Origin: Pseudooceanicola marinus
Lineage (GTDB): Bacteria > Pseudomonadota > Alphaproteobacteria > Rhodobacterales > Rhodobacteraceae
Assembly: GCF_020177265.1 (NCBI RefSeq)
Contig: NZ_JAIVMC010000001.1
Location: forward strand, 186,001 to 250,000
Reading direction: 5' to 3'
DNA: 64,000 nucleotides
Part shown: in pieces, positions 11,151-31,570 of the stretch
How positions within the stretch are numbered: the first letter of the stretch is position 1
Layout: every line of letters starts with the position of its first letter
Notes under the pieces: generated by a model
The model's input: the letters and a program-made list of their open reading frames with translations, nothing else
Told to the model about the DNA's origin: nothing
Databases searched by the model: none
Program-made: the position numbers and the translations under genes

Positions 11151-16034
<4,884 letters not shown>

Positions 16035-16166
16035 GGCGCCCCCCGTATTCGGAGACGATGCCGCCCGTCCTTTCGCCAGGAAGAGACGGCGCTCCCCTCT
16101 GTTCTGGTCTCACTAAGAACGGGCTAACACCTTGATGTTCCGATGAAACCCCTTTTGTTCTCAAAT

Positions 16167-16181
16167 GTTCTTAAAAAGTTC
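16167..16181 (+). promoter_or_regulatory. LexA (SOS) box, GTTC-N7-GTTC
   Basis: GTTCTTAAAAAGTTC is an exact match to the alphaproteobacterial LexA operator GTTC-N7-GTTC. A third GTTC at 16157-16160 is spaced N6 from the first half-site, giving a GTTC triplet. The box lies 73 nt before the start codon of a 40-codon gene and 132 bp after recG, in an A/T-rich stretch suited to a promoter. Confidence 0.8.
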
Positions 16182-16254
16182 TTTACGTGCGCCCGAGAAT
16201 CTGAGAACAAAGGGGCAACTCAGAGGAATGACACCGATCGCAAGGAGCCAAGAC

Positions 16255-16377
16255 ATGCTGAAAGACTTCATCCAGGTTGCCCGCCGTTCGCCTTCGGCGT
16301 TGGTTCAGGATCTTTTCGGGGCCGCGGCCCTGGTCGTGCTTCTTCTGGGCTCACTCTACCTGCCGGCTCTGACCTGA
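16255..16377 (+). CDS. SOS-box-controlled small membrane peptide (40 aa)
   Basis: 40-residue protein with an amphipathic, charged N-terminal half (MLKDFIQVARRSPSALVQD) and one hydrophobic helix, about residues 20-39, ending LYLPALT. It is predicted as a single-pass inner-membrane peptide with its N-terminus in the cytoplasm. AAGGAG at 16242-16247 is a strong ribosome site 7 nt before the ATG; a longer frame from 16165 would translate through the SOS box and is rejected. A strong terminator at 16512-16543 closes the unit. I do not recognise the family. Size, topology and LexA control recall SidA, the SOS-induced division inhibitor of Caulobacter, but no sequence relation is claimed. Confidence 0.72.
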   Translation: MLKDFIQVARRSPSALVQDLFGAAALVVLLLGSLYLPALT

Positions 16378-16511
16378 GCCGTTTCTGCCTGCAAATCGCG
16401 AGGGGCGCGCCGGATCCCCATCCCACGGGTCGGATCGCCTGTCCGCCCGGCCGGGTCTGCCTCATCCCCCGGTGCGCGTCCCTCAGTCCCAAGCGATCTG
16501 CATCCTTGCCG

Positions 16512-16543
16512 CCGCCGTCCCTCGGGACGTGCGGCGGTTTTTT
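16512..16543 (+). terminator. intrinsic terminator of the SOS peptide unit
   Basis: CCGCCG at 16512-16517 pairs with CGGCGG at 16532-16537, an inner TCC/GGA stem closes the loop, and six T follow at 16538-16543. It is a strong rho-independent terminator 134 nt after the peptide gene. Confidence 0.85.
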
Positions 16544-16631
16544 GTCTGACGCGCTTCTGCGCACGGTACTTTGGCCCGGGCGGGGCCATGGCGGTGCCTC
16601 GCAGCCGATCGGGGAGCGGCCAAGCCCCCGC

Positions 16632-18053
16632 TCAGAACCGGTAGGCCAGGCGCAGCCCGCCCCAGTGACGATTCTTGACGAAGATAGGCGCCGAGAGGTC
16701 CTTCATCAGTACGTAGTCGCCGCCGCCCATGTCGCGCCGGTAGACCTGCATCAGGAAGGGTTCCTTGTTGCGCCCGGCCTTCAGCCCGACGCGGTCGTCA
16801 AAGATGCGGCGGTTGCGGCAATGGGCCGTGTTCCAAACCGGATCGTCGGATTGCGGATGCGAGAACTTGCGGTTGTGGGTCGGCAGGTAGCCATTGCGAT
16901 CCACCGCGGCGCAGAAGGCGACCTTGTCGTCCAGCGCCAGCGCCTCTTCCAGGATTTCGGGCAGCAGCAGGTCGGTCAGCCGCGTGAAGCGGGTGGTGAC
17001 CTGTTCCGGGTCGCTGTTTGGCACCGGGCGATACTCGGTGTCGAAGAGATCGTCGAAACTGATACGTTCCTCGTCCACGGCCTCCTCGAAGGCGGCGCTG
17101 ATGCGGCGCGCCCGCGCCTGCACATCGGCGATGAAGGGGCCATCCTCGGTGTCGCCGCCGGCCGAGATGGAATCCTGCACCAGCGCCTCGGACAGGTCGC
17201 GCAGCACCTGCAGGCGATGGTGAACATCATCCACACCATCGGCACTGTCCTGGACGCTGTTGAACATGCTCTCGATCCGCGGGGTGTAGTCGCGCAGGGC
17301 CGCGTCCGCCTCCACAGCATCGTCGCGCACCAGTTTCATGCGGGTGACGGAGCGGTCCATCGCCTCCTTCACGGCGCCATTCATCTCGGCCACCTTGTCG
17401 CCGGTATGCGACAGCTCCCGCGAGGTGGCGGAAACCTGGCCGGTTTCCTGTTGCAGCGTGGTGATCCAGTCCACGAGCCGCTGGATGTTGTCGCTGATCG
17501 TCTCGGCGGTGGCGCCGGTCTGCTGCGACAGCTGGTTGATCGCATCGGCCACGACCGAGAACCCCTGGCCGGCGGTGCCGGCGCGGGCCGCCTCGATCTT
17601 GGCATTGATCGCCAGCATGTTCACCTGGGCGGCGATGTCGGCGATCTGATCGTTGCTCTGCTGGACGTCCTCCAGCACGCTTTCCACGTCCTGGGTGCGG
17701 GTGGCCAGGGTCAGCACCCAGGTCAGAACCTCGCGTGACTGCCGGCCCGCGACATCCGCCATGCCGAGCGCCTTGTCGAAACTGGCCTGGGTCTCTTCCA
17801 GCTGGGCGCAGGAATCGCGGATCGTGGTCATCACGGCCGCATTCATCTGCAACACCTGGCCCGTGCCCTCGCGCACCGTCTTCAGTTGCCGCAACAGCTG
17901 TTCGGTCTGCTGGGTCAGATCCTCCAGGAAGCCGTCGACATCGACTATTTCCTGGCCGAGCGCGGAGGCATTGCGGGCCAGCCGGTCGAGGGAGACACCG
18001 GCGGGCCGGGGGGGATCGGCGTCACGGGAGGGGAAGCTTGGGTCGTGTTGCAT
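16632..18053 (-). CDS. soluble methyl-accepting chemotaxis-type sensor
   Basis: 473 residues with no signal peptide or membrane segment, so cytoplasmic. Long coiled-coil helices occupy residues 20-300. The MCP signalling tip is at about 137-185 (NMLAINAKIEAARAG, GFSVVADAINQL), the site that engages CheA/CheW. The C-terminal 130 residues form a separate sensor-like module with NGYLPTHNRKFSHPQ, CRNRRIFDDRVGL and the terminal NRHWGGLRLAYRF. This module is found at the end of other alphaproteobacterial chemoreceptors and resembles a PAS/Cache-like input domain. The order, signalling part first and input last, is the reverse of classical receptors. The ligand is unknown. No che genes are nearby. 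Confidence 0.82.
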   Translation of the reverse strand: MQHDPSFPSRDADPPRPAGVSLDRLARNASALGQEIVDVDGFLEDLTQQTEQLLRQLKTVREGTGQVLQMNAAVMTTIRDSCAQLEETQASFDKALGMADVAGRQSREVLTWVLTLATRTQDVESVLEDVQQSNDQIADIAAQVNMLAINAKIEAARAGTAGQGFSVVADAINQLSQQTGATAETISDNIQRLVDWITTLQQETGQVSATSRELSHTGDKVAEMNGAVKEAMDRSVTRMKLVRDDAVEADAALRDYTPRIESMFNSVQDSADGVDDVHHRLQVLRDLSEALVQDSISAGGDTEDGPFIADVQARARRISAAFEEAVDEERISFDDLFDTEYRPVPNSDPEQVTTRFTRLTDLLLPEILEEALALDDKVAFCAAVDRNGYLPTHNRKFSHPQSDDPVWNTAHCRNRRIFDDRVGLKAGRNKEPFLMQVYRRDMGGGDYVLMKDLSAPIFVKNRHWGGLRLAYRF

Positions 18054-30356: not shown

Positions 30357-30388
30357 AAAACGCCCCCGGCCCGACTGGACCGGAGGCG
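30357..30388 (-). terminator. intrinsic terminator after first FadL-like gene
   Basis: On the - strand, CGCCTCCGG (30388-30380) pairs with CCGGGGGCG (30369-30361) with one wobble, then TTTT at 30360-30357. It is a classical terminator about 20 nt past the stop. Confidence 0.8.
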
Positions 30389-30409
30389 TCGATGCGCGGC
30401 AGGGCGCGA

Positions 30410-31570
30410 TCAGAAGGTGTAGGCGACCTTCAGGCCGAAGGCCGTCGCGTCGTTGTCCTCAAACGGGGCCACCGGGGTGCCGCCGGGCGCGGCAGTTGCA
30501 TCACCGACCCAGATCTTGCTGACACCACCGGAGACCTCGAAGGCCTCGGTGACCTTGTAGGACAATCCGATGGACAGGGAGGTCTTCCCGGTCGAAGGCG
30601 CCAGCGGCGAGACCAGCGTGTCGCCCTCCGCCTCGTAGCCCACCATGATCGAGCCGGCCAGTTTCGGGGTGAACCGACGGCCGATGCCGAGGTTGTAGGT
30701 GGTGGTATCGCTCAGATCCACGAGGTCGGGACCATAGGTCGGGTCGATCTTGAATTCCGAGTGCTTTACGTAGCGGATCGAGCCCATGATCAGCGTGTCG
30801 GCGGCGATGCCCGACTGGAACTCCAGGTTCCAGCTTTCGGGCGTCTTCACGTCCAGGGTGCTTTCCAGCGGGCCGGCGATCTGCGACCCCGGAGGGCCCG
30901 CGAGGTTCGGCACGTTGCGCTCGATCGTGTCGAAGTCATGTTCGATGGACGAATTGTAGGTCAGCGCCACGCGGAGGGCGATGTCCGGGATTTCATAGGC
31001 GGCCCCAAGGACGTAGCCGACGCCCGTGCCGTCCTCCAGCTTCACGTTGTAGCCGTTCAGGTTGGCGGGGTTCTGCGGCGGGTTGTAGGCGTAGGCCGCG
31101 CCACCCAGCGTGATGTCCCCGGTTGCCTTCTGGAAGCGCAGACCGCCGAAGACGCTGACGCGATCGGTCGCCTGGAACTTCGCCAGCAGGGTCAGCGCAT
31201 CGACGTCCGCCTGGGCTGTCGTGCCGGCGAGAAGGGCGGGGGTCGTCAGGCCGCCTCCAGCGTAGTCGTATTCGATATCTGCGCCGAAGGGCTTGTCGTA
31301 GATCATCGCCACCGACAGCTTGTCGGTCACGTCCATTTTCAGCGCGAAGCTGGGCAGGGTGAAATCGCCTGCGACATTTCCGGTGGCGTTGCCGAAGGCG
31401 TCCGCGCCAGACAGCGAGGGGCTGGCCGAGCCGAAGCTCAGCTCGAAACGGTTGCCTTCGCCGTACAGCACCATCGCCGATTGCGGCGTGCGTTCGATGC
31501 CCCCGGCATAGGCCGAGGTGGCGGTGGTGGCGGCAAGCAGCACCAGCAGGGCGCTCGACTTGAATTTCAT
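30410..31570 (-). CDS. FadL/OmpP1-type outer membrane transport protein (copy 1)
   Basis: 386 residues with a signal peptide (MKFKSSALLVLLAATTATSAYAG). The mature N-terminus GGIERTPQSAMVLYGEGNRFELSFG matches the hatch start of the FadL/TodX family. The rest alternates aromatic and polar strands with regular Thr/Asp-rich turns and ends VAYTF, the barrel terminus. FadL proteins carry long-chain fatty acids or other hydrophobic compounds across the outer membrane. It is a clear paralogue of the next gene (same GGIERT...QSAM start). The substrate is unknown. Confidence 0.88.
   Translation of the reverse strand: MKFKSSALLVLLAATTATSAYAGGIERTPQSAMVLYGEGNRFELSFGSASPSLSGADAFGNATGNVAGDFTLPSFALKMDVTDKLSVAMIYDKPFGADIEYDYAGGGLTTPALLAGTTAQADVDALTLLAKFQATDRVSVFGGLRFQKATGDITLGGAAYAYNPPQNPANLNGYNVKLEDGTGVGYVLGAAYEIPDIALRVALTYNSSIEHDFDTIERNVPNLAGPPGSQIAGPLESTLDVKTPESWNLEFQSGIAADTLIMGSIRYVKHSEFKIDPTYGPDLVDLSDTTTYNLGIGRRFTPKLAGSIMVGYEAEGDTLVSPLAPSTGKTSLSIGLSYKVTEAFEVSGGVSKIWVGDATAAPGGTPVAPFEDNDATAFGLKVAYTF

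Follow-up and report, generated by a model that had tools for sequence, protein, structure and literature searches.

Organization of the locus downstream of recG

The features of the locus and their positions in the window (the whole stretch of DNA analyzed, 64,000 nucleotides in length) are listed in Table 1. Comparisons were based on 57 non-redundant loci, from which two loci without the peptide (L072 and L074) and repeat retrievals of one place had been removed; these loci are mostly top-scoring matches and not a random sample. As described in the initial annotation, the unit lies directly behind recG: the RecG C terminus is encoded upstream of the peptide gene, on the same strand and 96 to 239 nt before the ATG, in 57/57 loci. 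An MCP-like gene follows downstream at 24 of the 57 loci only, whereas the recG-linked unit is found at all 57.

Table 1. Features of the recG-linked unit and its surroundings (positions refer to the window)
Feature	Position	Strand	Remarks
ligA	11383-13947		
recG, 696 aa	13944-16034	+	Pfam RecG_wedge, DEAD, Helicase_C, RecG_dom3_C
GTTC-N6-GTTC-N7-GTTC operator array	16157-16181	+	N6/N7 triple in 54/57 loci
LexA-type box, canonical GTTC-N7-GTTC	16167-16181	+	third GTTC at 16157-16160
TTTAC, conserved, putative -35-like element adjoining the box	16182-16186	+	consensus GTTCTTtAC over 55 loci
Second, reversed LexA-type half-site pair GAAC-N7-CAAC	16205-16219	+	GAAC-N7-NAAC in 57/57 loci
Shine-Dalgarno sequence AAGGAG	16242-16247	+	loosely defined SD-like motif in 57/57 loci
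40-aa peptide with a single predicted membrane helix, MLKDFIQVARRSPSALVQDLFGAAALVVLLLGSLYLPALT	16255-16377	+	ATG 16255; stop 16375-16377
Conserved structured RNA: outer stem, inner hairpins with C-rich loops, terminator	16382-16543	+	
RNA leader UUUCUGCCUGC, largely single-stranded, candidate seed	16382-16392	+	
C-rich loop CCUGUCC of the RNA	16438-16444	+	
C-rich loop UGCCUCAUCCCC of the RNA	16458-16469	+	
Conserved bulge AGUCCCAAG, 3' side of the RNA outer stem	16485-16493	+	
Rho-independent terminator, hairpin and T-run	16508-16543	+	hairpin 16508-16538, T-run to 16543
Convergent gene with MCP signalling domain	16632-18053	-	3' neighbour of the unit

The GTTC-N7-GTTC box with its additional upstream GTTC, the AAGGAG site followed by a 40-codon frame, and the terminator, all described initially, were found at the positions given in Table 1. 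The terminator hairpin with its T-run was seen both in single-sequence folding and with the covariance model described below; it is absent from the output of the terminator scan, whose two matches both fall inside the ORF. The initial description as a complete LexA-controlled peptide unit stands in so far as the unit is self-contained and carries a LexA-type operator, but the second operator and the structured RNA had been overlooked.

A conserved small gene encoding a predicted membrane peptide

All 57 loci possess an ATG start codon, and the deduced peptide comprises 40 amino acids in 49 of them and 39 to 42 in the remainder. Pairwise distances by codon position over the 57 loci are 0.42, 0.27, and 0.60. 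For the five closest pairs, dN/dS ranges from 0 to 0.14; among the 25 closer pairs listed, 16 have values below 0.2 and the maximum is 0.48. A check for frameshifts and synonymous-site bias, as suggested in the initial annotation, revealed no frameshift in the 57 loci and the presence of such a bias. The 40-aa ORF is almost certainly a real gene; judged from the sequence comparisons it is under purifying selection, and its translation is predicted. A longer frame of 70 aa from position 16165 was rejected: it would begin within the operator, and the relatives in the alignment start where the 40-aa frame does.

D19, G22, L34, and P37 do not vary in an alignment of 30 peptide members. In 47 of the 57 peptides, the net charge over the first 18 residues lies between +1 and +4, and 54 are free of charges after residue 20. 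The single membrane helix predicted at the outset agrees with the peak 17-residue hydropathy of the peptides, which lies between 1.75 and 3.14, and with an AlphaFold2 model featuring helices at residues 2 to 11 and 13 to 39 (mean pLDDT, 86.7). The model and the charge distribution suggest an N-in, C-out orientation with one membrane helix. Searches with the 30 members gave no match in Pfam or the PDB and weak matches only in NCBIfam and PHROGs (best E value, 0.041); as far as these four libraries go, the peptide family is without a name. A mobile origin of the unit was rejected, as the window peptide had no match among plasmids and the DNA none among phages.

A structured RNA between the stop codon and the terminator end

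The stop codon of the peptide gene is followed by a structured RNA of about 160 nt, extending to the end of the terminator, that shows strong covariation. A covariance model built from seven sequences (R1) matched the window at 16382 to 16542 with an E value of 9e-15 and 55 of the 57 loci with E<1e-9, seven of these being members of the model; the two loci without a match (L015 and L061) were kept in the set. In the resulting 55-row alignment, which was fitted to the structure and hence leans towards it, 92.3% of the cells are paired (96.6% in helix 8, the terminator helix), two-sided changes occur in 35 of 41 pairs, and the covariation score is 0.422, compared with 0.149 after shuffling and no more than 0.093 when the structure was slid. 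Folding of single sequences with the terminator removed is unaffected by this alignment bias and gave z values below -2 in 43 of 53 loci (mean, -2.96), four of the 57 loci having no terminator by pattern and thus being left out of the folding and pairing counts. The stretch from stop codon to terminator adopts a like fold in all loci folded. Taken together, the presence of a conserved structured RNA in the unit is practically beyond doubt.

G-U cells exceed A-C cells by 137 to 33 (88 to 29 when the terminator helix is left out), which favours the plus strand, the one that carries the peptide gene. This bias, together with the occurrence of the MCP-like gene at fewer than half of the loci, led us to reject the RNA as a part of the convergent downstream gene. 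No terminator was noticed between ORF and RNA, and both probably belong to the same transcript. Rfam 15 gave no match for 20 of the loci and four matches for window positions 16000 to 16700 at E<=10, all of them far below gathering. EcpR1, an sRNA of Rhizobiales, was rejected, being located, according to the accessible part of its description, at another locus, divK-pleD (PMC4414408). Elsewhere in the window, a weak covariance-model match was seen at 30357 to 30416 on the minus strand (E=0.003), perhaps a terminator-like hairpin.

The C-rich motifs and the leader are predicted to be unpaired with mean probabilities of 0.56 to 0.86, compared with 0.40 overall. The RNA may be an equal or even the main product of the unit, and the chances that it acts in trans appear evenly balanced. 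It might also act only in cis. The peptide would then be the sole effector, a SidA-like SOS division inhibitor, and the 3' RNA an element governing the stability or the timing of decay of its mRNA, with no target of its own. The LexA-type operators and the one-helix peptide fit such a unit, as does the precedent of SidA, a 29-aa, SOS-induced inhibitor in the inner membrane of Caulobacter crescentus that, in the part of the source available, interacts with FtsW (PMC4211646). Against it, the fold that has been kept is a branched one, in which several C-rich motifs are conserved and for the most part unpaired; we consider this explanation unlikely. A terminator hairpin by itself would give mRNA stability, and many pairing RNAs keep unpaired C-rich motifs.

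Distribution of the unit in the Rhodobacteraceae

The tblastn search proposed in the initial annotation found the peptide in 37 of 100 relatives. A profile built from 30 members (A1) matched 347 of 394 genomes of the same family at E<=0.01, corresponding to 346 of 393 genera, and seven further family genomes carry the unit although the profile missed their peptide. Five matches were obtained in 385 genomes of the class, all from the family of the window, the Rhodobacteraceae; in the genomes searched, the peptide sequence is confined to this family. A rebuilt covariance model (R2) detected 300 of the 394 family genomes by the RNA alone, under stricter filters and with some of the genomes having supplied model sequences. 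Those R2 matches that were compared by eye with the peptide matches start just behind the peptide. Among 289 genomes of the class, strong R2 matches occurred in four only, all of the same family. Matches of the RNA model beyond the family were not accepted as relatives: 21 of 25 matches lay outside but were weak (E>=1.6e-5), and the four inspected (L085 to L088) resemble chance matches.

Of 40 family genomes without a match to the peptide profile, R2 also detected 16 at E<=0.01. In six of these 16 (L091 to L095 and L102; the matches L103 to L106 and L109 to L111 were left out of this count), the end of recG and a divergent peptide of 39 to 40 aa are present, and a perfect GTTC- or GAAC-N7 box occurs in five of the six, the box of L091 being degenerate. 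Since these units, found through their RNA, carry divergent peptides, RNA and peptide stay associated also at loci where the peptide has diverged. By its sequence signatures, the unit appears common to most sampled genera of the Rhodobacteraceae, usually as a single copy per genome.

A LexA DNA-binding domain was matched in 29/29 unit-bearing control genomes and in 33 of the 40 family genomes without a detected unit, one of these matches (G029) being weak. Because LexA is present in these 33 genomes, some lineages can probably do without the unit, or it goes undetected there. The seven genomes without a match to the domain (G050, G054, G120, G183, G228, G255, and G293) have no detected recG-linked unit either; this co-loss of unit and LexA is weak evidence, because several of the unit-less genomes are incomplete. 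One genome counted as unit-less, G280, has a match to the promoter pattern described below at an unlisted place.

The distribution also bears on the reading of the peptide as a type I-like membrane toxin of the TisB/DinQ type that would depolarize the membrane and bring about dormancy after damage. A short hydrophobic peptide, as type I toxins have, is present in the unit, and the small size, the single helix, and the SOS-type promoter are consistent with such a function. In addition, base pairing between the Shine-Dalgarno region and the coding sequence is predicted with a mean probability of 0.56, a value obtained without a control. TisB and DinQ of Escherichia coli resemble it in being short peptides of the membrane with a link to DNA damage; in the parts of the literature available they are described with RNA partners, in contrast to the usually single, syntenic copy found here. 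Toxin-antitoxin modules are often patchily distributed. The unit, however, is near-universal in the family, usually present in one copy, and linked to recG at 57/57 loci, the window peptide has no plasmid match, and a fold-back of the 3' RNA onto its own Shine-Dalgarno sequence was not supported, with a mean pairing of 0.07 over 53 loci. A toxin thus seems quite unlikely.

Two facing LexA-type operators precede the gene

The conservation of the box at orthologous loci, which the initial annotation had named as a check, was confirmed: GTTC-N7-GTTC is present in 55 of the 57 loci, and the two box-less ones (L073 and L075) had been retrieved with a pattern of different spacer length. In these two loci, from Ruegeria sp. 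EL01 and an uncultured Sulfitobacter, the promoter is the same except that the spacer separating the second GTTC from the third is shorter by one base. Start to start, box 1 and the second box are 38 nt apart in 52 loci; in three loci, the distance is 39 nt. Over 55 loci, the promoter consensus reads tttGTTC.CaAAtGTTCt.AaAAAGTTCTTtAC, followed by 12 variable bases and then AtaTGaGAACAAAg.ggCAACa; a promoter scan gave no match to the sigma-70 consensus. By eye, an inverted repeat was read around the operators (approximately 16149 to 16163 and 16201 to 16214).

Within the 64-kb window, one box was observed versus 1.3 expected, which is not above chance, and significance of the box from the window by itself was rejected accordingly; genome-wide, 83 GTTC-N7-GTTC boxes compare with 41 for the reversed pattern. 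The box is counted as significant because it is conserved across loci, not because it is rare in the window. In the same genome, perfect boxes are located upstream of lexA (GAACAGCAGTAGAAC), recA (GAACAAGAGGCGAAC), and a Y-family polymerase gene taken as imuB (GAACAAATCGGGAAC).

The promoter pattern alone matched 201 of 295 family genomes, compared with 13 hits of a reversed control pattern, and 27 of the 30 loci retrieved in this way have the peptide 50 to 200 nt downstream. In genome G034, one match away from the locus is situated approximately 180 nt upstream of that genome's LexA domain. A further unit, in genome G323 (L271, G323:C25:79000-80900), was reached by the promoter pattern only and missed by the peptide and RNA searches, which therefore undercount; it consists of the end of recG, a GTTC array, a divergent peptide roughly 42 aa in length, and C-rich motifs downstream.

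Other arrays of this type were seen in passing. At L142 (approximately 1558 to 1584; G000:C7:312058-312083), two overlapping GTTC-N7-GTTC boxes share a common half-site in the genome of the window, beside a 406-aa ORF without Pfam match; this is a second candidate LexA array of the genome. At L143, two perfect boxes (1453 and 2158) surround a likely imuA-imuB cassette, one located 17 nt before the Y-family polymerase gene and the other upstream of a 212-aa ORF without Pfam match. A study of LexA in Dinoroseobacter predicts sites at lexA, recA, dprA, and others; recG is absent from its main text as far as accessible (PMC6473078).

The N6 spacing, the triple array, and the degenerate second box deviate from a plain LexA box and could point to another repressor reading the GTTC array, with the unit lying outside the SOS response. 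Yet lexA, recA, and the imuB-like gene of the same genome carry this type of box, the second box is fully canonical (GAAC-N7-GAAC) in the divergent loci L092, L093, L094, and L102, and LexA accompanies every unit-bearing control genome while the seven genomes without it are all among those lacking a detected unit. Another repressor is thus highly improbable. LexA control of the unit, in turn, is held to be very likely because the operators are conserved and the same box occurs at lexA, recA, and the imuB-like gene.

The ftsZ ribosome-binding site as a candidate target of the RNA

The ftsZ ribosome-binding site contains CAGGCGGA, which is identical in 29/29 relatives examined (L152 to L180), and this region would seem more conserved than an ordinary Shine-Dalgarno sequence needs to be. 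In 12 of the 29, AGGCAG occurs within 110 nt around it. For the genome of the window, an 11-nt pairing of the RNA leader with this site is predicted. Among 959 gene starts, ftsZ comes joint third for pairing with the leader; these starts were called with a simple script over 1.2 Mb, and doubtful ORFs are among them. The rank is post hoc, because the leader was singled out after the ftsZ sequences had been viewed. For the four other segments, ftsZ ranked between 72nd and 534th of the 959.

Over 29 genomes, the pairing of leader and ftsZ has a median percentile of 0.16 (mean, 0.19), reaching 0.05 or less in seven, against a background taken throughout from the gene starts of the window's genome; these genomes are not independent, because the leader and the ftsZ site are both conserved. 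Shuffled leaders gave a mean percentile of 0.55 against the same background. When the pairing was compared with shuffled ftsZ sites, the mean z value over 25 genomes was -0.68, as opposed to +0.58 for the unit's own start region. The complementarity to ftsZ is modest outside the clade of the window. The pairing is only suggestive, a lead rather than evidence of regulation, and that ftsZ is a target of the RNA must be regarded as unlikely.

These data also touch on the notion that the locus serves RNA production only, as an SOS-induced sRNA locus like DinR of Klebsiella, with the peptide as a minor accessory. The covariation-supported conservation of the RNA and the rank of ftsZ in the window's genome agree with it, but the pairing is weak in other genomes, and the peptide frame is kept in 57/57 loci with purifying selection in close pairs, which renders this option improbable.

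Comparison with known systems and proposed function

By analogy, SidA for the peptide and Klebsiella DinR for the RNA appear to be the best counterparts. SidA acts through FtsW/FtsN according to the accessible part of its description (PMC4211646). It shares with the peptide the nature of a tiny inner-membrane protein under SOS-type control in an alphaproteobacterium, the helix being predicted in the present case. It differs in length (29 versus 40 aa) and in having FtsW/FtsN as its target, the likeness here being one of description; moreover, the part of that source available mentions no 3' RNA, and profile A1 finds no such peptide outside the window's family in the 385 class genomes. DinR of Klebsiella pneumoniae is, as described in the part of the report available, the LexA-controlled 3' end of the dinI mRNA, which is released by RNase E and represses ftsZ (PMC10907235). 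Common to both are an RNA at the 3' end of the mRNA of a small gene with LexA-type control, a Rho-independent terminator, and a possible pairing with the ftsZ ribosome-binding site. DinR, however, is Klebsiella-specific and its action was shown on ftsZ, whereas the present RNA is family-wide, accompanies a membrane peptide instead of DinI, and has a predicted pairing. Within the same family, Pos19 of Rhodobacter sphaeroides is likewise a short stress-type transcript combining an ORF (150 nt) with RNA activity, compared here by description; by the available part of the source it is controlled by RpoE in oxidative stress (PMC5036791), in contrast to the LexA-type operators of our unit.

Among the papers listed by full-text searches, with preprints, most subscription papers, and supplements lying outside their scope, none dealt with the peptide or the RNA, and none described division arrest after DNA damage in Rhodobacteraceae. 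The text of a list of Paracoccus sRNAs does not contain recG in its accessible part (PMC5107571), and the RNA may still be part of such lists. Whereas its components are of known kinds, the combination of peptide and RNA in one family-wide locus is new. Of the features that characterize dual-function (coding) sRNAs, an ORF under purifying selection and a conserved structured RNA with a terminator were observed.

The gene, the operators, their co-conservation, and the fold and strand of the RNA are supported in silico. We give an even chance to the reading that the unit produces a LexA-repressed, damage-induced transcript with two conserved products, a SidA-like peptide and an SOS sRNA. LexA binding, induction, cotranscription, and the activities and targets of both products are what we infer for it. 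LexA dimers on the two facing operators, one by the -35 region and the other about 38 nt further on, would shut the promoter, and cleavage of LexA stimulated by RecA would open it, as the operators suggest. A single transcript would then extend from promoter to terminator. Its translation would yield a peptide of about 40 aa with a mostly positive, helical N terminus in the cytoplasm and one membrane helix, predicted to insert into the inner membrane and to end in LP near the periplasmic face. Like SidA, the peptide may dock on an inner-membrane partner, most likely of the late divisome, and division would be held during repair. Division arrest is proposed because of the analogy with SidA; that the peptide acts on division is plausible though tentative. 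The RNA with its C-rich loops, either free or as the 3' end of the mRNA, would function as an SOS sRNA through base pairing with ribosome-binding sites that are rich in G; ftsZ is the leading candidate for a target.

Irrespective of mechanism, one peptide family and one RNA family are added that the searched libraries lack, and the unit suggests that SOS regulons contain very short ORFs and 3' RNAs which escape notice. How the Rhodobacteraceae arrest division after damage can be tested directly in laboratory strains with this unit, which is near-universal and linked to recG and combines LexA-type operators, a membrane peptide, and a covarying RNA. A two-pronged checkpoint, in which the peptide stalls the late divisome while the sRNA shuts off translation of ftsZ and possibly other genes, appears rather unlikely; if true, the unit would encode a dual-function SOS RNA and represent the counterpart of the Rhodobacteraceae to SulA and SidA.
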